Below are positions 3,404 through 34,501 of a stretch of 51,916 bases of DNA, in pieces. Position numbers and translations under genes: made by a program. The stretch comes from Clostridium brassicae (lineage in GTDB: Bacteria > Bacillota > Clostridia > Clostridiales > Clostridiaceae): assembly GCF_026738875.1 (NCBI RefSeq), contig NZ_JAPQFJ010000022.1, forward strand, positions 1-51,916, given 5' to 3'. The notes under the pieces are model-generated. The model made no database searches. It was not told the origin of the DNA and saw only the letters and a program-made list of their open reading frames with translations. Position 1 is the first letter of the stretch. Every line of letters starts with the position of its first letter.

Positions 3404-4422
3404 TCACTCATACACAAAAAGAAAGCTTCAACATTTAAAATTTTATATTCTCTTATAGCATTGCAAACAATATTATAGACAATAAAAATTCTACTAATAA
3501 TGAAATAACTATCCAATAGACAATTGGTATCAAAATCATACATTACAATCTAATATTAAAAACTCTGGAGGTTGATTTGTATAAAAACAAACCAACCTCC
3601 ATTCTCAGCTTTTACTTAAAAATTTAATTATTTTTAAATCATTGATTCTTGAATAATTTATTGACAATAGTTATATTTTAAAATCAAACAATATGGTTAC
3701 AATGTATTTTTTATACAATTATTTAATGAAATATTATAGGAAATATAATATATTTTTTACTATAGTTAAATAACAATAGTATCTTATTTTACTAAAGTAT
3801 TACTTTTATTCTACTTATCAATAAACAACAACAATATATTATCTAAATAATTTTTTTAGTTATAAAAATATTTTTTTATAACATAGGTTTATATAAATTG
3901 AAAAACTTATTTATAGTCTTTTTTACATATATACTTCTTATCAATTTTATAATGTATAATCATTTTAATTATTTCATATCCTGTTATAATTAAAATTGTT
4001 TCAATTTTTATTTTTTATTTTATAATTCAATTAGGCAGTAAACCTCATCAATATCATCTTGATTGATCTCTACCGAAACCAAAAATTTTATTTATCACTC
4101 CTAGTATCATTAATAAAAAATAATACTTTAAATTCGTTTAAGAAAATTAATAATACTGATTTTAAAAAAGAAAATATCCAAATAGTATCTAGTTCAGATA
4201 ATTATTTGGAATATACTTATTCTTCAATATGATAATATTCTCCTGTGCTATTGGGATTTTGTAAAAATTATGTATAATATTCAAAGTATTGGAACAACTC
4301 CGAACCAATTAAAAAATCATATACAAAAGTACTTAAAAGCTCAGTGTGTAACAGATAAATGGTAAAAAGCCTCCAAATTGTATGGAGGCTTTTTCAACAA
4401 TCTGAGCACATAGTATTGCATT
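3404..4422. other. 1-kb gene-free region with a hairpin and decayed coding traces
   Basis: No intact gene. A hairpin with TGGAGGTTG (3566-3574) and CAACCTCCA (3593-3601) is present. From 4035 to 4365 two overlapping frames on the plus strand stay open for about 65 and 59 codons without a start or ribosome binding site. They read as one protein tail if joined by a frameshift, so this may be a decayed gene. Two terminators close the region next to glgD. Confidence 0.45.
4362..4395 (-). terminator. Terminator downstream of glgD
   Basis: AAAAAGCCTCCA and TGGAGGCTTTTT form a 12-bp stem with a 7-base loop and U-runs on both strands, so it can act bidirectionally. It ends the leftward glgC-glgD transcript. 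Confidence 0.75.
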
Positions 4423-12028: not shown

Positions 12029-12118
12029 ATTTGTAAAATTTTATTTATTTTATTTTAATTTTTTTTAAAAATTTATTTAAAAATTCGTGTATAATTATAA
12101 ATGCAAAGAGGTGGTGTA

Positions 12119-12811
12119 ATGAACCTAGAACAAATGAAAAAAGTAAATAGAGATGATTTTATAAAAAACAACAAAAATTTTATATATACTACAACTTATA
12201 AAGTTTGTAAAAAAAATCTACATTGGGAAAATGACGATGAATTAAGCATAGCTTTAATAGCTTTTAATAAAGCTTGTGATACTTATGATGATAATAAAGG
12301 GAATTTTTTTAGTTATGCTTCTGTACTTATAAAGAACTCATTAATCGATTTTTTTAAAAAATCAAAGGATACGCCTTATTTAATTTTTGATTCAAATAAT
12401 GATGAAGAAAAAAATAATCATTATATAGACTATAAAGTCTCTTTAAATCAGTATGAAATTGATTGTGAAAATAAAAATCGTGGTGAAGAAATAATGCTTT
12501 TTACACAACAATTAAAAAAATATAAATTAGATTTTCACTCTTTAGTTAAATCTTCTCCTTCTCACATAGATACAAGAAATAATTTATTAAACCTAGCACT
12601 TATTTGTTCCAAAAATGAGGATATATTAACATATATTAAAACAAAAAAGCTACTTCCTATTACTCAAATTGCACTAATAACTAATAATAGAAAAAAATAT
12701 ATAGAGAAATGGCGAAGATACATATTAACACTAGTAATACTTCTTTCTAGTAATGATTTTCCTTATATAAAATCTTATTTAAACATAAAGGTTGGTGATA
12801 ACTATGAGTAA
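12119..12811 (+). CDS. sigI: RNA polymerase sigma factor SigI
   Basis: 230 residues from ATG 12119, which follows AGAGGTGGTG; the longer ATG at 12101 lies upstream of that site. It has the SigI-type region 2: NLHWENDDELSIALIAFNKACDTYDDNKGNFFSYASVLIKNSLIDFFKK. The C-terminal region (about 130-220) carries the SigI-specific DNA-binding part. SigI directs heat or wall-stress genes in Bacillus and polysaccharide-sensing regulons in cellulolytic clostridia. Its stop overlaps the rsgI start by 8 bases, so sigma and anti-sigma are translationally coupled. Confidence 0.92.
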   Translation: MNLEQMKKVNRDDFIKNNKNFIYTTTYKVCKKNLHWENDDELSIALIAFNKACDTYDDNKGNFFSYASVLIKNSLIDFFKKSKDTPYLIFDSNNDEEKNNHYIDYKVSLNQYEIDCENKNRGEEIMLFTQQLKKYKLDFHSLVKSSPSHIDTRNNLLNLALICSKNEDILTYIKTKKLLPITQIALITNNRKKYIEKWRRYILTLVILLSSNDFPYIKSYLNIKVGDNYE

Positions 12812-13718
12812 AAAGTGTGGAATAGTAATGGAGGTAAAAAATAGAACTGCGTGTCTATTAACTAGTAATGGTGAATTTGTACAAGTTAAAATTAATAAAA
12901 ATCTTCCTTCTATTGGTAGCTCCTACACAGGCGAGGAAACAACGAAATTTTCTTTAAATAAATTTGTTGCAGCAGCTGCTTGTTTAATCTTATCTTTGTC
13001 TATATGTGGTGGTGCCTATGCTTACTATACTCCTGTAGCATCGGTGTTAGTTAAAATAAACCCTTCTTTAGAATTAAAAATAAATAGATGGAACAAAATA
13101 CTATCTGCAACTTCTTTAAATTCTGAGGGTAAGCATATACTTGATTCAATTAAAATTAAAAATAAATCAATAAATGATGGCCTTAATATTATACTTGATC
13201 AGGCAGAAAAACAAAATTTTATTAATAAAGAAAAAAATAGTACCATTAGCTTGTGTATAAATAGTAATAAAGACATTGATTTAAAAATAGCTGAATTAAA
13301 ATCCACAGTAAAAAATAAAAACTTTAATTTACAAATCAGTGCTTATACTGATGATAAAAATTATTATAAAGATAAAGGAAAAACTAATAACAGCAATAAA
13401 ATTGATAATAAAAATAATATTAAAAATATACCTAATAATGATTTTAATCCAAATAAGTCTAATAGTTCAAAAATTAATAAAACTAATAATATTGATTTAA
13501 AAAATAACTCTAGTAATGGCAATTTAAAAGCTAATGATAAAAAGACTAATAGTCCTTCAAATACTAATAATATAAATAAGTCTAACAATGACAAAGCTCA
13601 TCAGAATATAAACAAAAAAAACATAGATAAAGGTTATGAATATAAAAACCAAAAACATAATCCTAAGAAACAAAAATCCTATGAAAAAGAAGGTAATAAT
13701 AAAAAGTCATCGAATTAA
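12804..13718 (+). CDS. rsgI: Anti-sigma-I factor RsgI with Asn/Lys-rich outer tail
   Basis: 304 residues from ATG 12804 (GGTTGGTG site). The N-terminal RsgI domain (about 2-50: CGIVMEVKNRTACLLTSNGEFVQV) binds SigI in the cytoplasm. A membrane helix (about 54-74) follows, then the conserved periplasmic-side domain (ASVLVKINPSLELKINRWNK..., about 77-185) known to undergo self-cleavage in related RsgI proteins (the cleavage is family knowledge). From about 190 the tail is low-complexity Asn/Lys/Ser, unlike the carbohydrate-binding modules of cellulolytic RsgIs. This suggests wall or anionic-polymer contact rather than a sugar-binding sensor; that is inference. Confidence 0.9.
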   Translation: MSKKCGIVMEVKNRTACLLTSNGEFVQVKINKNLPSIGSSYTGEETTKFSLNKFVAAAACLILSLSICGGAYAYYTPVASVLVKINPSLELKINRWNKILSATSLNSEGKHILDSIKIKNKSINDGLNIILDQAEKQNFINKEKNSTISLCINSNKDIDLKIAELKSTVKNKNFNLQISAYTDDKNYYKDKGKTNNSNKIDNKNNIKNIPNNDFNPNKSNSSKINKTNNIDLKNNSSNGNLKANDKKTNSPSNTNNINKSNNDKAHQNINKKNIDKGYEYKNQKHNPKKQKSYEKEGNNKKSSN

Positions 13719-13771
13719 ATTAAAAGAAGGTATCTAAATAATTATTTTTAAATAAGAAGTAGGTGAACTAT

Positions 13772-14350
13772 GTGAAAAAAGCTACGGGAGTGGTAATTAA
13801 GGTTTATTCTAAATACGTTTGTGTAAGAACAATAAATGGAGAATTCATAAATTTAACTTTAAAAGACTACACTCCAAATGTAGGAGATATATATACAGGA
13901 ACTATATATAGTGGAACTGCTTTAAAAAGAATTAGAGCAATAATCTTGCTCTCTGTAGTCCTGTTAATATTATTTGGACAAAGCTTGTATTTTTACTTAA
14001 TACCATCTGCCACTATAGTACTTAATATTCCTCCATCCATACAACTTAAGGTAAATAAATGGAATAGAATAATTTCTGTAAAAGGACTTCAATCATCAGG
14101 TCAAAAACTTACTGATTCTATAAAATTAAAAAATAAATCCTTAGATGAAGGCCTAAAGCTAATTATAGAAACGGCTAAATCGGAAGATATTATTAATAAA
14201 AAATATATTGATAATAACAATGCTGTAACTATTTATGTTTGTTGTGATGAAAACAAAGATATTGATTTAATTAAATTTGATGAATTCATGAAGCATGAAT
14301 CACTTAAATACCAAATAAATAATAACGGGAAAGGAACTTTTATAGACTAA
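13772..14350 (+). CDS. Second, short RsgI-family anti-sigma protein
   Basis: 192 residues from GTG 13772, behind GTAGGTGA; a GTG at 13763 lies inside that site. It is a tandem paralogue of the preceding RsgI: N-terminal domain KATGVVIKVYSKYVCVRTINGEF, one membrane helix (about 54-76), then ATIVLNIPPSIQLKVNKWNRI...LTDSIKLKNKSLDEGLKLI, which aligns block by block with ASVLVKINPSLELKINRWNKI...LDSIKIKNKSINDGLNII of RsgI. It ends soon after this domain and has no outer tail. It may modulate SigI or serve another SigI-like factor. It follows rsgI by 53 bases, probably in one transcript. Confidence 0.82.
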   Translation: MKKATGVVIKVYSKYVCVRTINGEFINLTLKDYTPNVGDIYTGTIYSGTALKRIRAIILLSVVLLILFGQSLYFYLIPSATIVLNIPPSIQLKVNKWNRIISVKGLQSSGQKLTDSIKLKNKSLDEGLKLIIETAKSEDIINKKYIDNNNAVTIYVCCDENKDIDLIKFDEFMKHESLKYQINNNGKGTFID

Positions 14351-22963: not shown

Positions 22964-23308
22964 CAATTATTTTTTTGAAAACCTTTACTTTATTTAACAA
23001 CATTTTTAATAATGTATTTATTTTATTTATATATCATATTCACCTCCCATATTATATTCTTCACCTATAATCGAACCATCATCAGCCCCATCCTCTAAAA
23101 TAGTAGCTGTTTTATTGTATTTCTTTATAAGTGTGTATATATAATTTATGCCTTTATCACTCTTAAATTTTATGATTTTATCCTTTATATTTATAAATTA
23201 GTAAAATAACCCTAAAATTGTTTATTGTTTTACTCATATTACTTAATATTACGTATAACTATCCATATCATTGTGATAAAATAATTCTAATAAGGGGTGA
23301 TTTTATAT
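22964..23308. other. Divergent intergenic region with a start-less open frame
   Basis: Between the serine promoter and the OmpR regulator. On the minus strand 23027-23197 stays open for 56 codons with natural-looking composition, ending in ADDGSIIGEEYNMGGEYDI, but it has no start codon or ribosome binding site and is closed upstream by TAA. It may be the tail of a lost gene. The rest holds the promoter of the rightward regulator. Confidence 0.4.
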
Positions 23309-23986
23309 ATGCAAAAGAAAATTCTTATTGTTGAAGATGAAAAAAAACTCTCTCAAATAATGTCTTTATATTTAGAAAAAGAAGGTTATTTAGTTACTAC
23401 AGCACAAGATGGTTTAGAAGGAGAAAATATATTAACTGAACATACTTTTGATCTTATAATATTAGATGTAATGATGCCTGGCATAGATGGTTGGTCCATT
23501 CTTAGAAAAATTAAATCTAAAAATAACACTCCAGTAATTTTAACTACTGCTCGTGGAGAAGAAGAAGATAGGATCTTTGGTTTAGAACTTGGAGCAGATG
23601 ATTATATGGTTAAACCTATAAGTATGAGAGAACTAATTCTTAGAGTAAATCTTAGAATTAAAAGTACATTTACTAATAAAAATAAGCAAATTATATTAGC
23701 AGATGCAGATATGATAATTGATGAGAATAAAAGAGAGGTTGTCGAAAAATCTCACATTATAAACCTAACTCCAAAAGAATTTGATCTCTTAGTATTCTTT
23801 TGTAAGAATTCGAATCAGGTTTTTAATCGCAGTCATCTTTTGGATAAAGTATGGGGATACGACTTTTCTGGCGATACTAGAACTGTAGATACTCATGTTA
23901 AAAATCTAAGAGAAAAATTGTCATTTTGCAGTCTAAATTTAAAAACTATTTGGGGTGTGGGCTATAAATTGGAGGTTAATTCATGA
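23309..23986 (+). CDS. OmpR/PhoB-family response regulator
   Basis: 225 residues from ATG 23309, behind AAGGGGTGA; a longer start at 23297 overlaps that site. Receiver domain: VEDE acidic pair, phospho-acceptor Asp in LIILDVMMPGIDGW, TTARG and the Lys in DDYMVKPIS. The winged helix (about 127-222) has LTPKEFDLLVFF and TVDTHVKNLREKL. It binds DNA as direct repeats after phosphorylation by the next gene's kinase. Its TGA stop overlaps the kinase ATG (ATGA), showing translational coupling. The regulon is unknown; the Pho-box-like array at 17.36 kb is one possible target. Confidence 0.93.
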   Translation: MQKKILIVEDEKKLSQIMSLYLEKEGYLVTTAQDGLEGENILTEHTFDLIILDVMMPGIDGWSILRKIKSKNNTPVILTTARGEEEDRIFGLELGADDYMVKPISMRELILRVNLRIKSTFTNKNKQIILADADMIIDENKREVVEKSHIINLTPKEFDLLVFFCKNSNQVFNRSHLLDKVWGYDFSGDTRTVDTHVKNLREKLSFCSLNLKTIWGVGYKLEVNS

Positions 23987-25287
23987 ATCTAAACAAAATA
24001 ACCTTAAAATTAATCAAATATTTTATATATATTATAAGTACTGCCATTTTAATTTGTTTTATTGGAAGCAGTACTTTTATATCTAAATTTTATAAACAAA
24101 CTCAATTAAAAACACTTCAAAAATCAGCTTACGACATTTATGAAGGTTTAAAGGAAGGATACATGTATGAAGATTTATCTATAAGTATAGTTGTTATAAA
24201 AGACAATAAAGTGATTCCTCTTGGAAGAAGAAAGATGGCAATACAAGGTGCTTTTAGAAACGTAGACTTTAATTCTCTTTCTACTGAGGGTACTTTTAAA
24301 AATATTGGGAATGAAAGTTTTTTATACTATAAGATGCCTACTGAATTAGGTGACATAATCGCTTTTGAAAATACTAAATATTCCTCTGATTATTTAAAAA
24401 TAATATATTTAACCCTACTTATAATATTCATTTTATCTATTATATTATGTATTCCTCTCATCTCTTATATAGGCAAAAAATTCACTAATCCAATTATTGA
24501 GCTAAAAAAATCATCACAAAAAATTGCTTCTGGAGACTTTAATTTTAATCCAAATATAAGAACTGGAGACGAAATTGAGGAACTAGCGATGAGCCTTCAA
24601 TCTATGGCTATAAATCTAGAAAAAAAATACGAACTTCAAAAAGACTTTATAGCAAATGTTTCTCATGATTTTAAAACCCCCTTAAGCATTATACGAAGCT
24701 ATAGCGAGGCTATAAAAGATGGATTAGTTGAAGGACAGGATATAAATAATTATGCTGGTGAAGTAATAGAAGAAGTTGATAGATTAAATAAACTAGTAAT
24801 AGAAATATTAGAGCTTTCCAAACTACAAAGTGGAAAAATACCTCTAAGCAAAGAATATCTAAACATAAAAACTTTATTAAAAGAATGTATTGAAAAATTT
24901 AGACCTCTTTCAAAAGAAAAAAATATTTCTCTTTTACTTAAAGGGGAGGAATTTAAAATATATGGAGATAGAACTTACCTTTTAAGAGTCATTTACAATT
25001 TTATAGATAATGCTCTAAAATTCAGCCCTTGTAATGAAGAAGTTTTAGTGTGTACATCTTATGTAAACAGTAATGTCAAAGTTTCAATTATAAATAAAGG
25101 AAACGGTATCTCTCAAAATATGTTAGAAAATATATGGCATAAGTATTATAAACACGAAAAAAGTGGTGGAATTGGCCTTGGCCTTCCTATATGTAGTGAA
25201 ATCTTAACCCTTCATAAATTTGAATATGGTGTAATTAGCAAAGAAAATCAGGAAACTGAATTCTATTTTTTAGCTCCTATAAAATAA
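23983..25287 (+). CDS. Sensor histidine kinase, partner of the upstream regulator
   Basis: 434 residues. Two membrane helices (about 10-33 and 138-162) bracket an outer sensor of about 100 residues without a recognised fold. A HAMP linker (about 163-215) leads to the dimerisation domain with H-box ANVSHDFKTPLSIIRSYSE, then the ATPase domain with FIDNALKFSP, NKGNGIS and GIGLGLPICSEIL. It phosphorylates the regulator encoded just upstream. The stimulus cannot be told from sequence. The transcript seems to end in the DnaA-box region that follows. Confidence 0.93.
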   Translation: MNLNKITLKLIKYFIYIISTAILICFIGSSTFISKFYKQTQLKTLQKSAYDIYEGLKEGYMYEDLSISIVVIKDNKVIPLGRRKMAIQGAFRNVDFNSLSTEGTFKNIGNESFLYYKMPTELGDIIAFENTKYSSDYLKIIYLTLLIIFILSIILCIPLISYIGKKFTNPIIELKKSSQKIASGDFNFNPNIRTGDEIEELAMSLQSMAINLEKKYELQKDFIANVSHDFKTPLSIIRSYSEAIKDGLVEGQDINNYAGEVIEEVDRLNKLVIEILELSKLQSGKIPLSKEYLNIKTLLKECIEKFRPLSKEKNISLLLKGEEFKIYGDRTYLLRVIYNFIDNALKFSPCNEEVLVCTSYVNSNVKVSIINKGNGISQNMLENIWHKYYKHEKSGGIGLGLPICSEILTLHKFEYGVISKENQETEFYFLAPIK

Positions 25288-25301
25288 ATATAGCTATTAA
25301 G

Positions 25302-25648
25302 ACAAGTTATGCACATTATCCACAATCTCTTGTGCATAACTTGTTAATGTTATGTTAATACACTTTCAAATTCAATGGATTATATTTACATTTATTGTAT
25401 TATGCTATAATTTATTAGACTATTCTTTATTATATTCTATTATATTTAAATTTATAGGATATGATTTTAGATATAATTCACATTATCCACAGCTAACTGT
25501 TATTAACTTGTGTATTCTATGTTAATTTAAGGTATAATATATTATAAAGTATAGTACTTTACTATAAATTTAACTGAAAATTCAACACATTTCCTTCATT
25601 GTTATACACATTATCCACAGTTATGTTAATAACTTGTGGATAATGTGT
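25302..25648. other. DnaA-box cluster 1 (three modules) in a gene-free region
   Basis: Boxes on plus: TTATGCACA 25307-25315 and TTATCCACA 25316-25324 directly joined; TTATCCACA 25483-25491; TTATACACA 25602-25610 and TTATCCACA 25611-25619 directly joined. On minus: 25331-25339 (TGTGCATAA) and 25635-25643 (TGTGGATAA). Modules 1 and 3 are also long hairpins (14-bp perfect, and about 19-bp with one bulge). dnaA and dnaN are absent, so this is not the main origin. DnaA titration or control of initiation is plausible. Confidence 0.6.
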
Positions 25649-25650
25649 TT

Positions 25651-26229
25651 TTAATGGCTAATTAATTTACCTTTTATTATTAACCTATGAGAAGCTACCC
25701 TTATAGGTGTACATGTTACTAAGGTAATTTCCCCTTCCTTTGTGTTATTTAACACTGAAACTTCTGTTGGTTTAACTACCATTTTTTTATAAACAATATA
25801 TTTATACTTCCCTTTTTTATTTTGAATATATATTTCATCATTTTCTTTTAACTCGTCTAATCTATTGAAAAATTCATTATAAGTATAACTTCTATGCCCA
25901 GCTATACAGCAATTTCCCTTATCACCTGGAAGAGGTGTATCTTTAAAATGTCCTACCGAATACTTCAGTGTATTTTTGTCAATCCCTTCACAAATAGGAA
26001 CTTTACAATCAATCTTAGGAATACTTAAAATTCCTATTGTACTATCTAAATTAGTATTACGTTCATCTTTATTATCGTTTATTTTAGAATCTATATCCTT
26101 TAATTGTTGATTAAATTCTTTTATTAAACTCTGCTCCTTCATATTACTCTTTATTCTTAAAAATAAAGCTGTTGTAATTATTAAAACTCCTATAAAAATA
26201 AGTGCAATACTTACTTTATTTTTTTTCAT
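25651..26229 (-). CDS. Sortase, class D-like
   Basis: 192 residues. An N-terminal membrane anchor (about 7-25) is followed by a charged stalk (30-55) and a catalytic sortase barrel. His is in CCIAGHRSYT, Cys in LVTCTP, and Arg in VASHRLIIKG, the three residues of sortase transpeptidases. The size and TLVTCTP context fit class D. It cleaves LPxT-type signals and links surface proteins to peptidoglycan. No protein with such a signal is encoded in this window, so its substrates are elsewhere. ATG behind GGGGGAAGG. It faces the two-component genes and ends beside the DnaA-box cluster. Confidence 0.88.
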   Translation of the reverse strand: MKKNKVSIALIFIGVLIITTALFLRIKSNMKEQSLIKEFNQQLKDIDSKINDNKDERNTNLDSTIGILSIPKIDCKVPICEGIDKNTLKYSVGHFKDTPLPGDKGNCCIAGHRSYTYNEFFNRLDELKENDEIYIQNKKGKYKYIVYKKMVVKPTEVSVLNNTKEGEITLVTCTPIRVASHRLIIKGKLISH

Positions 26230-28844: not shown

Positions 28845-29275
28845 TTTTTATTCCTCCTTTAAATAGATTTATCCATAGTATAATGGTAAACCAACATAAT
28901 ATATGCCAGTTTATTCCATATTTCTAAAACCAGGCATTTTTATAGATTTTACAAAATTAATATTCCTTTCATTAATTAATATTAATTAGTATTTTATATT
29001 ATTCATGAATTAATATTAATTAAAACTAATTATTATTTATTAATACTTAAATTATATCATATTTATATTAATATTCAATAAATTTAAAATTTTTACAATT
29101 ATATTTTTTAACATTTATTCATTTTATTATGTATGTATCAACTCCTTCCCAATATTAAATATGCATTTTTTAATAAAATTAATCATAAATAATAATATTT
29201 TGAAACAAGTTGACAATTATAGATTACAGATGTAATATATATTAAAGATTACATTTGTAATATGGAGGTGAGATA
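28845..29275. other. Divergent regulatory region between ctfA and blaI
   Basis: 430 bases, no ORF. It holds two copies of the palindrome AATTAATATTAATT (28974-28987 and 29008-29021, 34 bp apart), nearer to ctfA, and the blaI promoter with two BlaI-type operators at its right end. Otherwise A/T-only sequence. Confidence 0.6.
29210..29261 (+). promoter_or_regulatory. blaI promoter with twin BlaI-type operators
   Basis: TTGACA (29210-29215), a 17-base spacer, TAATAT (29233-29238). Operator 1 ATTACAGATGTAAT (29223-29236) covers the -10, and operator 2 ATTACATTTGTAAT (29248-29261) covers the start of the transcript, 25 bp centre to centre. Both contain the TACAnnTGTA core recognised by BlaI/MecI repressors, so autorepression is very likely. 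Confidence 0.88.
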
Positions 29276-29659
29276 ATGTCAAATATACCTAAAATATCTG
29301 ATTCAGAGTGGCAAGTAATGCAAGTCATTTGGTCTAAGTCACCATGTACAGCTAACCAAATAGTTGAAGGTCTATCTAAAATTACTAAATGGAAACCTAA
29401 AACAATAAAAACTTTAATAAATCGTCTAGTGAAAAAAGGGATCATTAGTTATGAAGTGGACAAAAAAGATAAGAAAACCTATCATTACTTTCCTTTGTTC
29501 TTACAAAATCAGTGTATAAAAGCAGAAAGTAAATTTTTCTTAGATCGAGTGTTCAATGGTTCATTAAATGCTATGCTTGCAAATTTTTTAAATGAAAGTG
29601 AATTATCACCAGAAGAAATTCAAGAATTAAAAGACATCCTTGATAAAAAGAAAGGGTAA
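29276..29659 (+). CDS. BlaI/MecI-family transcriptional repressor
   Basis: 127 residues. N-terminal winged helix: ISDSEWQVMQVIWSKSPCTANQIV, WKPKTIKTLINRLVKKGII, then YHYFPLF. The C-terminal dimerisation region contains FNGSLNAMLANF; Asn103-Phe104 matches the Asn-Phe bond cut in Staphylococcus BlaI and MecI on induction (family knowledge). It should repress its own promoter through the twin operators and be inactivated by the membrane protease encoded 11 bases downstream. No beta-lactamase or mec gene is near. ATG behind ATGGAGGTG. Confidence 0.92.
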   Translation: MSNIPKISDSEWQVMQVIWSKSPCTANQIVEGLSKITKWKPKTIKTLINRLVKKGIISYEVDKKDKKTYHYFPLFLQNQCIKAESKFFLDRVFNGSLNAMLANFLNESELSPEEIQELKDILDKKKG

Positions 29660-29670
29660 ATGGTGATTCT

Positions 29671-31530
29671 ATGCTATATTTTCTACCTACTTTTAAATGG
29701 ATAATTTATTCAACTATCCTTGGAAGTATTTTATCCTTTGTTATTTTTATTTTTAAACTTTTATTTAAAAATAAACTAAACGCTCGATGGCACTATTGTG
29801 TTTGGTTATTACTAATAATAAAGCTATTAGTTCCTTATTCACCTAAAAGTACACTAAGTATTTTTAATATTTTAAATTTATGCAAAATAAACGTCACTGA
29901 AATAAATTCTACCTTAACTCATAACACTATTAACTCAGAACTAAAAGTTTCTACACAAAAACCAATATCCATTAAACCAAAAAATAAAATATATTCAAAC
30001 CAAAATAAACCTATTACTACAGCAAATACCCATACTGAAGAGTTTAAATCTAACACCCCTTCAACAGTGTCATTTAACAATTTATCTCTATACTTTAAAA
30101 TTACTTATATGTTATGGCTATTTGGAGTACTTGCACTTACTATTTTTACAATAACAGCAACTTTAAAATTCTATCTTAAATTAAAAAAACAACAAATATG
30201 TGTAGATAAAGATATTATAAAAATTTTAGCTACATGTAAAAATAAAATGGGTGTACATAAGGAAGTAATGATATTAAATACTAGTTTAGTGAGTAGTCCA
30301 GCAATTTTCGGATGTATACATCCAAAATTATTATTACCTTTAGAGATAAATAAACAACTTAATCATAAAGAATTAGAATATGTTATTTATCACGAAACAG
30401 CTCACTTAAAACGTAAAGATATTTTAGTAAGCTGCATAACATGTATTCTGCAAATACTACATTGGTTTAATCCAATTATATGGTATTCATTCTACAACAT
30501 GAGACATGATAAAGAGTTAGCTTGTGATTCTCTTGCTTTATCATATATCTATCCGGATGAATATGTATATTATGGTAAAACAATCATAAAGTTATTAGAA
30601 TACTATCAACACTCTAACCATGTTTGTGGAATGGCGTGTATCATAAATAATAAATCTATTATTAAAAGGAGAATTACTATGATTTCTTTATTTAAAAAAG
30701 GTTCCTACAAATGGTCACCAATACCAATCTTTATTCTAGCAATGATGAGCCTTGCCTTGTTAACTAATGGTAAAAATGCTCAAGTACTAGCTTCTAATAA
30801 AAATCCTAAGAGTTCAAAAATAGAACAAAACTTAAATAACAAAGATTCTTCCATTTCCGAATATGACATAGAAGGTAATCATTTTAAAGGTAAAATGTTA
30901 GTTATACCTAAATCCAAAAAAATATCTGTTGGTTTTAATAATGAAGTTTCAAAAATCACCAAAACAACAAGTGAAATAGCTAAAGACAATAATGCTCTTT
31001 GCGCAATTAATGCAGGTGGATTTACAGAATCTATTCTACCTTACGGTTTAATAATTCATAATGGAAATGTTGTATATAATGATATAAAAGATAAAGAATC
31101 CGAAACGGATATAGTTGCCTTTAATGAAACTGGAAAATTAATTGTTGGAAGACACTCCTTATCACAATTAAAAAAAATGAATATTAAAGAAGCTGTAAGT
31201 TTTGGACCTGCACTTGTAATTAACGGACAACCTATGATAGCAAAAGATAATGGTAACTGGGGTACTGCACCTAGAACAGCAATAGGGCAACGAGCAGATG
31301 GAACTACTCTTTTTTTAACTATAGATGGCAGAAGTAACCTCTCTTTAGGTGCTACCTTATCAGAAGTACAAAATATACTTATTGAATTTGGTGCTGTTAC
31401 TGCATCTAATCTTGATGGAGGAAGTTCCTCTACTATGTATTACAACGGAAATATAATAAACCACCCTTTTGATCTTAAAGGTCATAAAGTTGAACGTATA
31501 ACTTCATCAACTTTTATGGTATTACATTAA
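29671..31530 (+). CDS. BlaR1-type M56 antirepressor fused to a phosphodiester glycosidase (NAGPA) domain
   Basis: 619 residues. Membrane helices at about 10-32, 41-56, 142-166 and 351-366, the four-helix plan of BlaR1/MecR1. The cytoplasmic loop between helices 3 and 4 is the M56 zinc protease: HETAH at 241-245 and DKELACDSLAL (280-290). Where BlaR1 has its outer penicillin-binding sensor, this protein has a NAGPA domain (about 400-619, PF09992 type): CAINAGGFTES (444-454), PYGLIIHNG, SFGPALVINGQ, PRTAIGQRADGTTLFLTIDG (534-553) and NLDGGSSSTMYY (580-591). SxxK, SxN and KTG transpeptidase motifs are not evident. Inferred role: sense or cleave a cell-surface sugar phosphodiester, then inactivate the BlaI repressor. 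Confidence 0.9.
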   Translation: MLYFLPTFKWIIYSTILGSILSFVIFIFKLLFKNKLNARWHYCVWLLLIIKLLVPYSPKSTLSIFNILNLCKINVTEINSTLTHNTINSELKVSTQKPISIKPKNKIYSNQNKPITTANTHTEEFKSNTPSTVSFNNLSLYFKITYMLWLFGVLALTIFTITATLKFYLKLKKQQICVDKDIIKILATCKNKMGVHKEVMILNTSLVSSPAIFGCIHPKLLLPLEINKQLNHKELEYVIYHETAHLKRKDILVSCITCILQILHWFNPIIWYSFYNMRHDKELACDSLALSYIYPDEYVYYGKTIIKLLEYYQHSNHVCGMACIINNKSIIKRRITMISLFKKGSYKWSPIPIFILAMMSLALLTNGKNAQVLASNKNPKSSKIEQNLNNKDSSISEYDIEGNHFKGKMLVIPKSKKISVGFNNEVSKITKTTSEIAKDNNALCAINAGGFTESILPYGLIIHNGNVVYNDIKDKESETDIVAFNETGKLIVGRHSLSQLKKMNIKEAVSFGPALVINGQPMIAKDNGNWGTAPRTAIGQRADGTTLFLTIDGRSNLSLGATLSEVQNILIEFGAVTASNLDGGSSSTMYYNGNIINHPFDLKGHKVERITSSTFMVLH

Positions 31531-31635
31531 AACTCTAGAAATCAGTTCGTTTATAATTATTTTGTTTATTAAATCCTTATATACCTAGATTCATTAAGGT
31601 TATGTTTTAAAAGTTGTTGATTTTCTATAACTTAT

Positions 31636-31680
31636 AATAGGCATATAAATAACTTTTTATTAGTTATTTATATGCCTATT
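31636..31680. terminator. Bidirectional terminator between the M56-NAGPA gene and the ParR-like gene
   Basis: AATAGGCATATAAATAACT (31636-31654) pairs perfectly with AGTTATTTATATGCCTATT (31662-31680), a 19-bp stem with a 7-base loop. The plus side continues ATTTTC. Confidence 0.8.
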
Positions 31681-31698
31681 ATTTTCTAAGAGTTAATA

Positions 31699-32064: not shown

Positions 32065-33111
32065 TCAACCTGCATTCCTTTTCCATTTTCTAACACCTTG
32101 TTTAAAAAGACCTGATGGATTCTGAGTTCTACTTAAATACATTGCATTTTTAAATTCATCTTCAAGATAAGGCTTTAAGATACTGGCCCCTCCCCCTGTG
32201 AATATAATATTTTCTATAAATGGGAAAGCATTTTCCCATACTGTTTGTATTTCTAAAATAATCTTTCTTGCCAAACTCTTATATGCTTTTTCAATTACGG
32301 GAGTTAAATCATAACCTTTAATATGACCAGCTGCCACTATATAAGGAATTTGTCCATCTCCAACATAAAGATGTAACTCCTGCTCTATGTAATCCTGCAC
32401 CCACATATAAGCTGTATACATTCCACTATTTTTTGTCTCACAAAAGTCTGAAAGAGGCTCTAAAGCATCAACTAAATAAAGGTTATGTGTTTTTCCACCA
32501 ATATCTGATATAGCATTTACCTTTCTAGCCATATCCTTATTTATGATATTTCCTTTAGAATCTAATATTAACTCACACAAAGTCCCATGCGGTTGGGCTT
32601 TTATTAAAAGGTCTTCAACCTTTATAATTTTATTTTCAAAATCTTTTTGTCCATATAATTTCATACTTATACTATGCTGCCTTATTACTTTTGCTCTCAT
32701 TTTTTCAATTCTTTCCTTATCTAATGTAGCCTTTACAGGCAGCCCCATAACAAGCTTTACTCTACTCATGGGTTTTTTTGACATTAAAGACAAATGGGTT
32801 TTTAACAAAATATCAAAAGAAGTGTCGTTATGCTTGTCCGCAGCTCCATTCCACTGCATATTTCTATCTTGCCTTATAGCACATTCTCCTACAAGATACT
32901 TTGAACCATTTACTTCAACTTCAATTCTACTAAGACCACTTTTTTTTGACTCATTCAAATCACTTTCATTGTCATAAATAGGTCTCCATCCTGTAACATA
33001 TGACGGAGTTATAAACATTCCTGTGTCTTCAGATCTAGATTTAGTATCTGCATATCCATCATCGATTACTTGTACATTAAAAGAATCTACAATAGCATTC
33101 TTTGCTCCCAT
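32065..33111 (-). CDS. ParM/StbA-family actin-like ATPase
   Basis: 348 residues of actin fold: phosphate-1 loop VIDDGYADTKSRSEDTG, phosphate-2 AISDIGGKTHNLYLVDA and adenosine loop IIFTGGGASILKPYLE. The family polymerises with ATP and pushes plasmid copies apart, bridged by a ParR adaptor on a parC centromere. Here the gene pair sits among ordinary chromosomal genes. ATG behind CGGAGGTGG. Upstream is a promoter whose -10 lies between the arms of an inverted repeat, plus a 20-bp palindrome, which could be the operator/centromere. It may be an integrated plasmid relic or a system recruited for a chromosomal task. Confidence 0.85.
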   Translation of the reverse strand: MGAKNAIVDSFNVQVIDDGYADTKSRSEDTGMFITPSYVTGWRPIYDNESDLNESKKSGLSRIEVEVNGSKYLVGECAIRQDRNMQWNGAADKHNDTSFDILLKTHLSLMSKKPMSRVKLVMGLPVKATLDKERIEKMRAKVIRQHSISMKLYGQKDFENKIIKVEDLLIKAQPHGTLCELILDSKGNIINKDMARKVNAISDIGGKTHNLYLVDALEPLSDFCETKNSGMYTAYMWVQDYIEQELHLYVGDGQIPYIVAAGHIKGYDLTPVIEKAYKSLARKIILEIQTVWENAFPFIENIIFTGGGASILKPYLEDEFKNAMYLSRTQNPSGLFKQGVRKWKRNAG

Positions 33112-33349: not shown

Positions 33350-34501
33350 CTATGATAGAATAATCCTTTCGAGCTCTTTTTTTAAATCTCTTATATTGCC
33401 ATGAAAAATAACAATATCAATGCCCATTTCTTTAGCTCTTAATATAATGCTTCTTTTACAGGGTTCTTTTGTCGCTACAAGTATTTTTCTTACTTCTTCT
33501 CCTCCAATTTGAGCTCCATATACCTCTAATTCATTTAAAGCTTCTATACCATACTTTGAAGTATCCTTACAGGATATATATATAAGCTTAGAATTAATAG
33601 ATGCAAGTACATCTATTTCATTTCTTACATGTCTTTCTTCGCCATCCCATAAAAATACAACCCCACTTTTTATATCATCTACCTCTTTTATTTCCTTTAC
33701 TATATTATAAACAAGTATTTCAAGCCAAGTACCCGTTTTTAAAAACAAGGTTTTTGTTTCCAATCCTTTAAAATTTAAGATTATTTTATCCTTACCTTCA
33801 TACTCATAGTTAAAAAAATCGAACTGTTGAAATTTATCTAAAAGTCTATTATATTCCACTCTCTCCTCTTTATTTGCTTCAGTAATACTTATTACAGACT
33901 TTTGGTTTATATAATCATTCTCTTCTGCAGAACTTACACTAGAAAGAATTTTTTTAAATTTTTCCCATGAATCATAGTTAGAAATTATATATTCTATAAA
34001 TCTTTTTATATTGTCATTATTAAACCATTTTGTAGAATGAGAGATAATTTCCCCACCTGTAATTTCTATAAAATCCTCCACATCCATATCTTTTATCACA
34101 ATATCTAACTTTTCACATTTTCCATAACTTAAATCCAAAATACATTCATTTTCTATATCTATATATACTGATTTCATTTCCATTTTTTCTGCTATTCTAT
34201 AAGTAAGTAAATTTATAATCCCTTTTCCAGAAGACAAGTTAACAAAAGTGCCCTCATCTCTAATGTTATTTAAAATATTTTCTATATTTTCTGAGTTTAC
34301 TTCTTCAATACATTCTTCAAGAATTTCTGTGCTTGGAAGTTTCTCTCCTAAATACTCTTTTACCCTACTAAATTCTTCTTTATTATGATCATTAAATTCG
34401 TATAAAAATACTGTTTTCTCTGGATTCAAATTTAAAGTGACTATAAGATTATACTGCTCACTATTTTCATCTAATAAATTAATTAGCTTTTTACATTTCA
34501 T
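33350..34501 (-). CDS. CARF-domain PD-(D/E)XK nuclease (Card1/Can2, DUF1887-like)
   Basis: 383 residues. The N-terminal half (1-145) resembles a CARF sensor: LIVTLNLNPEKTVFLYEF and the nucleotide-loop-like FVNLSSGKGIINLLTYRIA (87-105; compare N-x-T/S-G-G-T-K). The C-terminal half resembles the DUF1887 nuclease: GTWLEILVYNIV (Glu261), VVFLWDGEERHVRNEIDVLA (Glu295, Asp297), then LIYISCKD (Lys312), and YGAQIGGEEVRKILVAT. Card1/Can2 enzymes cut nucleic acid when cyclic oligoadenylate from type III CRISPR binds CARF. No cas gene or array is in this window. The acidic residue often found before Cys-Lys is Ser310 here. ATG start; the ribosome binding site is only AGGTGA-like. Confidence 0.75.
   Translation of the reverse strand: MKCKKLINLLDENSEQYNLIVTLNLNPEKTVFLYEFNDHNKEEFSRVKEYLGEKLPSTEILEECIEEVNSENIENILNNIRDEGTFVNLSSGKGIINLLTYRIAEKMEMKSVYIDIENECILDLSYGKCEKLDIVIKDMDVEDFIEITGGEIISHSTKWFNNDNIKRFIEYIISNYDSWEKFKKILSSVSSAEENDYINQKSVISITEANKEERVEYNRLLDKFQQFDFFNYEYEGKDKIILNFKGLETKTLFLKTGTWLEILVYNIVKEIKEVDDIKSGVVFLWDGEERHVRNEIDVLASINSKLIYISCKDTSKYGIEALNELEVYGAQIGGEEVRKILVATKEPCKRSIILRAKEMGIDIVIFHGNIRDLKKELERIILS

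Follow-up and report, generated by a model that had tools for sequence, protein, structure and literature searches.

BlaR1 is the textbook antibiotic sensor, and the question raised by the locus described here is what a system of this kind may detect when its outer domain is another enzyme. The locus belongs to Clostridium brassicae (assembly GCF_026738875.1) and lies in a stretch of 51,916 nucleotides, positions 1 to 51,916 of contig NZ_JAPQFJ010000022.1, hereafter referred to as the window. It consists of two open reading frames on the plus strand, 11 bp apart and at the coordinates given by an earlier sequence-only reading: the first, of 127 amino acids (aa; 29276-29659), encodes a BlaI/MecI-family repressor, and the second, of 619 aa (29671-31530), a membrane M56 metalloprotease fused to an outer phosphodiester-glycosidase domain (NAGPA). 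We propose that the pair is probably a derepression switch of the BlaI/BlaR1 type, gated by this phosphodiester-glycosidase input domain. The sequence-only reading had suggested that such a switch could be uncharacterised, in line with our literature searches, where no paper on the M56::NAGPA architecture appeared by title or abstract and none combined 'BlaR1' and 'phosphodiester glycosidase'.

A BlaR1-type chassis with a NAGPA outer domain

The repressor matches Penicillinase_R (PF03965, E 8.2e-36), and its Asn103-Phe104 dipeptide, compared also with that of relatives, aligns with the NF pair of Staphylococcus aureus BlaI and MecI; according to the available part of PMC9834060, S. aureus BlaI is cut between Asn101 and Phe102. 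By its family and its predicted cleavable Asn-Phe bond, this protein is the kind of cognate repressor that accompanies BlaR1 and MecR1, as the sequence-only reading had claimed.

The second protein contains Peptidase_M56 (E 5.1e-63, residues 13-338) and NAGPA (PF09992, E 5e-46, residues 440-609) in one chain, both far above the cut-offs, and shows no transpeptidase or beta-lactamase family among its Pfam matches at E up to 1. The NCBIfam model blaR1_generic covers residues 12-380 alone, with 207 bits against a cut-off of 400. The M56 part (29707-30684, plus strand) has H241, E242, H245, D250, E282, D286, Y301, R333 and R334 in invariant columns, with HETAH at residues 241-245, and thus holds both the HExxH motif and the partner Glu of the M56 gluzincins found in BlaR1/MecR1 sensor-transducers. 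In the alignment, the functional M56 residues of S. aureus BlaR1, whose roles are taken from the available part of PMC9834060, recur at a constant offset of 40, and the protease looks competent by these residues. The AlphaFold2 model (mean pLDDT 83) contains four long membrane-type helices (residues 4-32, 38-53, 136-172 and 350-364) and a beta-rich outer domain, which bears out the four-helix HETAH protease described earlier. The first extracellular loop, equivalent to EL1 of BlaR1, spans residues 55-149 (29833-30117, plus strand), that is, 95 aa counted from the conserved Pro55 to the conserved Trp149.

The outer domain (30988-31500, plus strand) carries the motifs INAGG, PRTAIGQ, IDGRS and NLDGGSSS, which we take to form the active site. 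Compared with 47 free NAGPA homologues, it retains 43 of the 48 columns that are conserved in at least 93% of them, including N447, G449, R535, T536, D552, G553, D582, G583, G584 and S586, and the five changed columns (415, 430, 444, 485 and 550) fall outside INAGG, PRTAIG, IDGR and LDGGSS, with 444 and 550 near two of these motifs. With its motif residues intact relative to the free enzymes, the window sensor looks able to bind, and probably to cut, its substrate. Its predicted fold is likewise that of NAGPA and not of a transpeptidase, the alignment to structure 3OHG spanning residues 101-619 with trimming off and hence being loose in its range. A search for M56 and PF09992 in one chain and a structure prediction had been proposed as checks on the claim that a NAGPA domain takes the place of the penicillin-binding one, and both came out in its favour: the PF09992 match is there and the transpeptidase fold is not.

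Thus, the window system shares with BlaR1/MecR1 and BlaI/MecI of S. aureus and Bacillus licheniformis the repressor family, the cleavage dipeptide, the four membrane helices, the functional M56 residues and the palindromes over the promoter described below, whereas its outer domain is NAGPA instead of a penicillin-binding domain of the class D beta-lactamase-like type with SxxK and KTG motifs. Membership in BlaR1 proper therefore fails on the sensor domain. From the other side, it shares the outer-domain fold and the motif residues with the NAGPA/DUF2233 phosphodiester glycosidases (vertebrate 6PKU; BACOVA_00430, 3OHG), but carries the domain on a transmembrane regulatory protease that is partnered by a repressor. 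There is hardly any chance that the protein is a beta-lactam sensor that merely looks different: it has the chassis, repressor and operators of the family, but the outer domain is NAGPA by family and by fold, and beta-lactam sensing was rejected on these grounds. A BlaR1 homologue of Mycobacterium tuberculosis is also described, in the available part of PMC9834060, as having no equivalent sensor domain.

Relatives, neighbours and origins of the fusion

After the removal of duplicates, 17 distinct M56::NAGPA fusions were collected (15, and two added later), 16 of them besides that of the window, and the recurrence of both domains in these 16 further proteins confirms that the fusion is real and far beyond chance. 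The full fusion occurs in one of eight genomes of the genus and, at E up to 1e-60 and counting the listed matches that reach into both domains, in 14 of 206 genomes of the family (15 loci); a further candidate, G161, with a match over residues 7-490, was rejected, having no NAGPA match in the retrieved sequence. In a class-wide sample of 391 genomes, with the three best candidates per genome scored, it was found among the matches listed in the window genome and G138 only. In a phylum-wide sample of 398 genomes at E up to 1e-110, a cut-off that would miss fusions as divergent as those of G074 and G037, it was found in the window genome, G599 and G748. The named carriers, which account for the five loci out of 69 that matched over residues 1-618, are Clostridium tagluense A121, C. 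bowmanii DSM 14206, Clostridium sp. DSM 17811 and Clostridium sp. CF012, the last with two copies. An intact-looking blaI adjoins 15 of the 17 fusions.

In eight of the 17 loci (C. bowmanii, C. tagluense, DSM 17811, the second copy of CF012, G082, G084, G599 and G748), blaI, the fusion, a free NAGPA gene and a gene for a partner of 342-430 aa stand adjacent on one strand. There, as in BlaR1/MecR1 systems, the outer C-terminal domain is homologous to an adjacent enzyme, the paired enzyme being in this case a phosphodiester glycosidase, and by analogy the arrangement repeats the classic BlaR1/beta-lactamase logic around a different enzyme. In Pelosinus JBW45, similarly, two proteins homologous to the outer domain of an M56-transpeptidase flank that protein.

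Five copies of the partner (L155, L139, L140, L067 and L071) match no Pfam family at E 0.01, and one copy of C. brassicae itself (L152) gives a weak beta-propeller match (E 4e-4, below the cut-off). An AlphaFold2 model built from four sequences (mean pLDDT 81) shows an N-terminal helix and then beta-strands throughout, and its Foldseek list is headed by WD40-type and other beta-propellers with TM-scores around 0.5. The partners are homologous among six clostridial loci. C. brassicae has two homologous NAGPA-partner pairs away from the window (L152 and L153) and a third NAGPA gene (L154) that is partnerless within the 6.5 kb read. In a ten-sequence database, the partners of the two pairs match those of every one of the eight loci, weakly for G599 and G748. 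The paired free NAGPA has a hydrophobic N-terminus, read by eye, and both it and the predicted propeller look membrane-anchored.

These neighbours bear on whose polymer would be recognized. The ligand could be a foreign phosphodiester polysaccharide, such as a competitor's wall or an exopolysaccharide, with the circuit inducing a scavenging or attack enzyme. The patchy distribution given above (one of eight genus genomes, 14 of 206 family genomes at the cut-off used) would suit such foraging, and the available part of PMC12419801 places NAGPA domains in large proteins of spore-forming Bacillota with a proposed role in conflicts. However, a free NAGPA and a propeller protein that both look membrane-anchored would rather suit work on the cell's own surface, and in one relative, at the first CF012 locus (L068), an LCP ligase gene (PF03816, E 5e-38) begins 60 bp downstream of the fusion. 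We regard foraging as possible, with an appreciable but minor chance of being right.

Phylogenetic trees do not place the sensors in one clade. In a tree built from 17 sensor and 49 free NAGPA domains (66 in all), which followed one of 62 domains, a single NAGPA-sensor clade is rejected (p-AU 1.27e-9) and at least three label changes are forced. The sensors of G599 and G748 group with their own free neighbours (support 100/99), and in the 62-domain tree the G074 and G037 sensors cluster with free enzymes from their own genus (support 100/100). In a tree of 53 M56 parts, including 16 of the 17 NAGPA-type ones (one being too short), a single NAGPA-type clade is also rejected (p-AU 3.8e-6), with at least four changes forced; within it, a single origin of the main NAGPA-type group of ten rows is neither supported nor rejected (p-AU 0.49). 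This tree left out truncated copies of the window protein (L162, L163) and of L151 (L160), a near copy of L151 (L027), and L132; the distant rows L101-L135 stood outside both M56 trees, save L132 in the first. By path, the M56 part of the window protein is nearest to a transpeptidase-type protein of its own genus, and the nearest sensors to its NAGPA domain come from another genus of the family. In the C. bowmanii/C. tagluense group, the NAGPA genes that follow the fusions trace to separate branches of the free-enzyme tree (L155/L141/L140; L139/L071; L067), although the NAGPA trees contain long rows whose placement is unsure according to the program, some branches of this group among them. At least three independent recruitments would be the natural reading of these trees, although not the only one, and their number is not firm, since label changes may be gains or losses.

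The same chassis carries other enzymes as well. Out of 91 M56 frames, 52 were tallied by Pfam, leaving out 6 duplicates and 33 distant ones, in a sample biased towards relatives of the window protein: 14 have a NAGPA outer domain, four a transpeptidase, two an M23 and one a SpoIIP domain, the remainder being various or without a known domain. Penicillin-binding protein (PBP) transpeptidase domains (PF00905) are found in L148 from G003, where the M56 gene precedes blaI (E 5e-69), and in L072 from C. tetanomorphum (E 8e-61), whose protein end is the same as that of L149 from G111. By length and motifs, we read the outer domain of L148 and L149 as closer to class B PBPs than to the class D-like domain of BlaR1. 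A SpoIIP amidase-type domain is found in G005 (L150:6935-8704, E 1.7e-24), M23 domains in a Marinisporobacter metagenome-assembled genome (MAG) and in Anaerophilus nitritogenes, and, among the distant frames, an LCP glycopolymer-ligase domain in a Clostridiales MAG (L132:3962-5863, PF03816, E 1.6e-32). All of these share the chassis of the window protein, but their outer enzyme differs, and presumably so does the wall component concerned.

It could still be argued that the NAGPA domain is mainly a tethered or shed hydrolase and hence part of the output, with the switch sensing something else, for example through EL1 or the state of the membrane. Intact motif residues make catalysis likely in the window protein, and S. 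aureus BlaR1 has a signal-peptidase site at Gly331 according to the available part of PMC9834060. We nevertheless consider such enzyme delivery unlikely, as a free NAGPA already follows in eight of the 17 loci, where a second delivered copy would be redundant, and other wall-enzyme domains hold the same place in other M56 proteins.

The control region and its reach

The control region adds a promoter, tandem palindromes and a terminator-like hairpin to the features listed by the sequence-only reading. The promoter is of the sigma-70 type (29210-29238, plus strand), with TTGACA (29210-29215), a 17-nt spacer and TAATAT (29233-29238). The consensus scan as a whole gave 19 sites against 19.8 in shuffles, that is, no excess, so that the call relies on position and conservation: TTGAC is invariant in 13 of 13 aligned loci and TTGACA is present in 12. 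The first palindrome, ATTACAGATGTAAT (29223-29236), overlaps the -10 hexamer, and the second, ATTACATTTGTAAT (29248-29261), lies 25 bp downstream, directly upstream of the ribosome-binding site. Both would be BlaI operators, and they are part of a 23-nt direct repeat with a spacing of 25. After the operon stands a terminator-like hairpin of 20 pairs with a T-rich tail (31635-31681, plus strand), one of three such sites in the scanned stretch against 0.4 expected.

Within the window, a scan for ATTACANNTGTAAT that tolerated one mismatch found two sites, each an exact match, while 13 of 100 shuffles give at least two such looser matches. Conservation across loci is the stronger argument. The alignment of promoter DNA comprises 13 loci: nine NAGPA-type (out of the 17 fusions), two transpeptidase-type, one SpoIIP-type and the second pair of C. 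brassicae. A palindrome covers the -10 in all of them, with exact TTACAnnTGTA in 12, and the two transpeptidase-type systems and the SpoIIP-type one have the -35 and both palindromes in common with the window. Six more fusion loci were inspected outside the alignment, plus L068 and G138 individually. G599 and G748 have TTGACA, TTACAnnTGTAA and, further on, a near-copy of TTACAnnTGTAA before blaI; L068 has both TTGACA and TTACACATGTAA; and G138 has a single TTACAACTGTAA.

A genome-wide operator scan had been suggested as a way to list the targets of BlaI, and it yielded the autoregulation sites and perhaps one more. ATTACANATGTAAT occurs exactly at three places in the genome, two at the window operon and the third 36 bp upstream of a subtilase gene. 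When as many as two mismatches were allowed, the forward matches came to 441, compared with 391 in the control, so that this relaxed search is hardly informative. For TTACANNTGTAA, 18 sites were found, compared with 12 in the control, and of the 15 whose context was determined, seven are inside open frames of at least 70 aa and eight outside. Four of these eight lie within 60 bp of a downstream start: both window sites, the one at the subtilase gene and another upstream of a 139-aa frame. The palindrome scans accordingly support autoregulation and perhaps control of the subtilase, but no wide BlaI regulon in this genome, and they did not connect the palindrome with the genome's free NAGPA genes. 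Two small BlaI regulons with BlaR1 genes and hypothetical proteins, read as beta-lactam responses, are described for C. thermocellum in the available part of PMC8457756.

The subtilase gene belongs to a second blaI/M56 pair of the same genome (G000:C8:2286-5530, L151), whose short outer domain has no Pfam family at E 0.01. It follows the M56 gene and has a TTACATTTGTAA site 36 bp upstream of its start codon, and M56 and subtilase genes of this type recur in G006 (L027). The genome has two full BlaI matches and one partial, and its two BlaI proteins are identical over WKPKTIKTLI, which we take to be the recognition helix. Given this shared stretch and the same palindrome at the subtilase site, cross-talk between the two systems would be possible.

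The window copy might be an isolated, largely useless remnant of a system that functions in relatives together with the effector pair. No NAGPA gene follows it, its nearest sensors by path are in another genus, and at two other fusion loci, L068 and G138, damage is plainly visible. However, both of its genes are open, its key residues, palindromes and promoter are intact, and homologous NAGPA-propeller pairs exist elsewhere in the genome, which makes a relic quite improbable.

Elsewhere in the window, a sigma-factor gene (PF04542, E 1.5e-6) is followed by two successive RsgI-type anti-sigma genes (PF12791/PF23750), the second of them short (12101-14350). A response-regulator/histidine-kinase pair lies next to an opposite-strand sortase gene (PF04203) at 23297-26229, about 3 kb upstream of the blaI operon. 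A gene for a Card1-like endonuclease protein (PF09002, E 3.5e-18; 33350-34501) has as neighbours an Alp-type actin gene (32065-33111) and a small gene that matches no Pfam family.

How the switch may work and what it may sense

In the mechanism that we favour, BlaI dimers on the two tandem operators, one of them over the -10, would keep the operon down. Engagement of the outer NAGPA domain with its substrate, a sugar-1-phosphodiester in a glycopolymer of the wall or surface, would be relayed by the membrane helices, and the M56 protease on the inner side would cut BlaI at Asn103-Phe104. The operon would then be expressed, and with it, in relatives, the adjacent free NAGPA and beta-propeller pair. 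Some vertebrate NAGPA structures are described as auto-inhibited in the titles of their PDB entries, the plug being presumably the propeptide, which suggests that a peptide may occupy the NAGPA groove. By analogy, the substrate could displace the long first loop from that groove: in BlaR1, this loop sits in the sensor active site and is displaced by the drug, according to the available part of PMC9834060.

Several observations weigh against this reading or limit how far it extends to relatives. EL1, the loop that docks into the sensor in BlaR1, has pLDDT below 50 over residues 74-132 of the model. Neither an effector gene nor a NAGPA gene was found downstream of the fusion in the window, nine of the 17 fusion loci have no adjacent free NAGPA, and the two pairs of C. 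brassicae (L152 and L153) show no [AT]TACAnnTGTA[AT] in the stretches read. The alignment of 19 BlaI proteins includes 15 from beside fusions, and seven of these have no Asn-Phe pair, those of G133, G120, G179, G074, G037, G599 and G748 differing at Asn, Phe or both. At L068 (Clostridium sp. CF012 contig00051, 3689-3990) blaI is truncated, with the preceding palindrome and the fusion gene retained, and in G138 both blaI and the M56 part are fragmented. Of 15 sensors compared, 12 retain G449, 13 retain D552 and 14 retain D582, and the sensor of G133, identified by its sequence, has no columns for residues 519-553, so that the ability to bind and cut that the window sensor appears to have would not extend to every relative. 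Operators vary as well. No [AT]TACAnnTGTA[AT] lies within 120 bp before blaI in G120, G179, G074 or G037; G179 (L144) has a CTACAnnTGTAG pair, G074 and G037 (L146/L147) have another palindrome, TCTATAnTTATAGA, and in G120 no palindrome could be named in those 120 bp. The operator seems to have shifted along with the BlaI lineage.

With these points considered, anatomy and comparative genomics lend good support to the proposal that the system acts in the manner of BlaR1. The interpretation of the sequence-only reading, a switch relieved by a sugar-phosphodiester signal, stands in part: NAGPA as the derepression input gains indirect support from repeated evolution and from the sensor/effector pairing in relatives. 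The leading candidate for the ligand is the GlcNAc-1-P linkage unit of wall glycopolymers, a best guess that may well be wrong and that draws on alike bond types, the apparent membrane anchors and the one LCP neighbour. Glycopolymers are typically linked to the C6-OH of MurNAc through a phosphodiester installed by LCP enzymes, and the conventional linkage unit terminates in alpha-GlcNAc-1-P (both from the available part of PMC7831098); the substrate of the vertebrate enzyme is GlcNAc-P-mannose, with GlcNAc-1-P on the C6 of mannose (available part of PMC12024695).

What is new here is a set of 16 further M56::NAGPA proteins, the pairing with a free NAGPA and a propeller protein in eight of 17 loci, and sensors that are not monophyletic. 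The combination appears to have been built several times in related bacteria, often next to a gene for the free enzyme, and this suggests a circuit that keeps watch on a sugar polymer of the wall or surface. More tentatively, BlaI/M56 could be a general wall-surveillance module that borrows a copy of the envelope enzyme it controls, with NAGPA, PBP transpeptidase, SpoIIP amidase, M23 endopeptidase and LCP ligase as interchangeable inputs and beta-lactam resistance as one special case, the NAGPA version reading the glycopolymer-peptidoglycan phosphodiester and having been assembled independently at least three times. Most M56 proteins in our biased sample carry outer domains other than that of BlaR1, and the literature searches gave no paper on what those sense. 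The repeated pairing of NAGPA sensors with free NAGPA enzymes leads to the prediction that the ligand is the enzyme's own substrate, and these systems may therefore offer a handle on the function of bacterial NAGPA proteins at the Gram-positive surface and, possibly, a reporter of wall-glycopolymer damage in clostridia.

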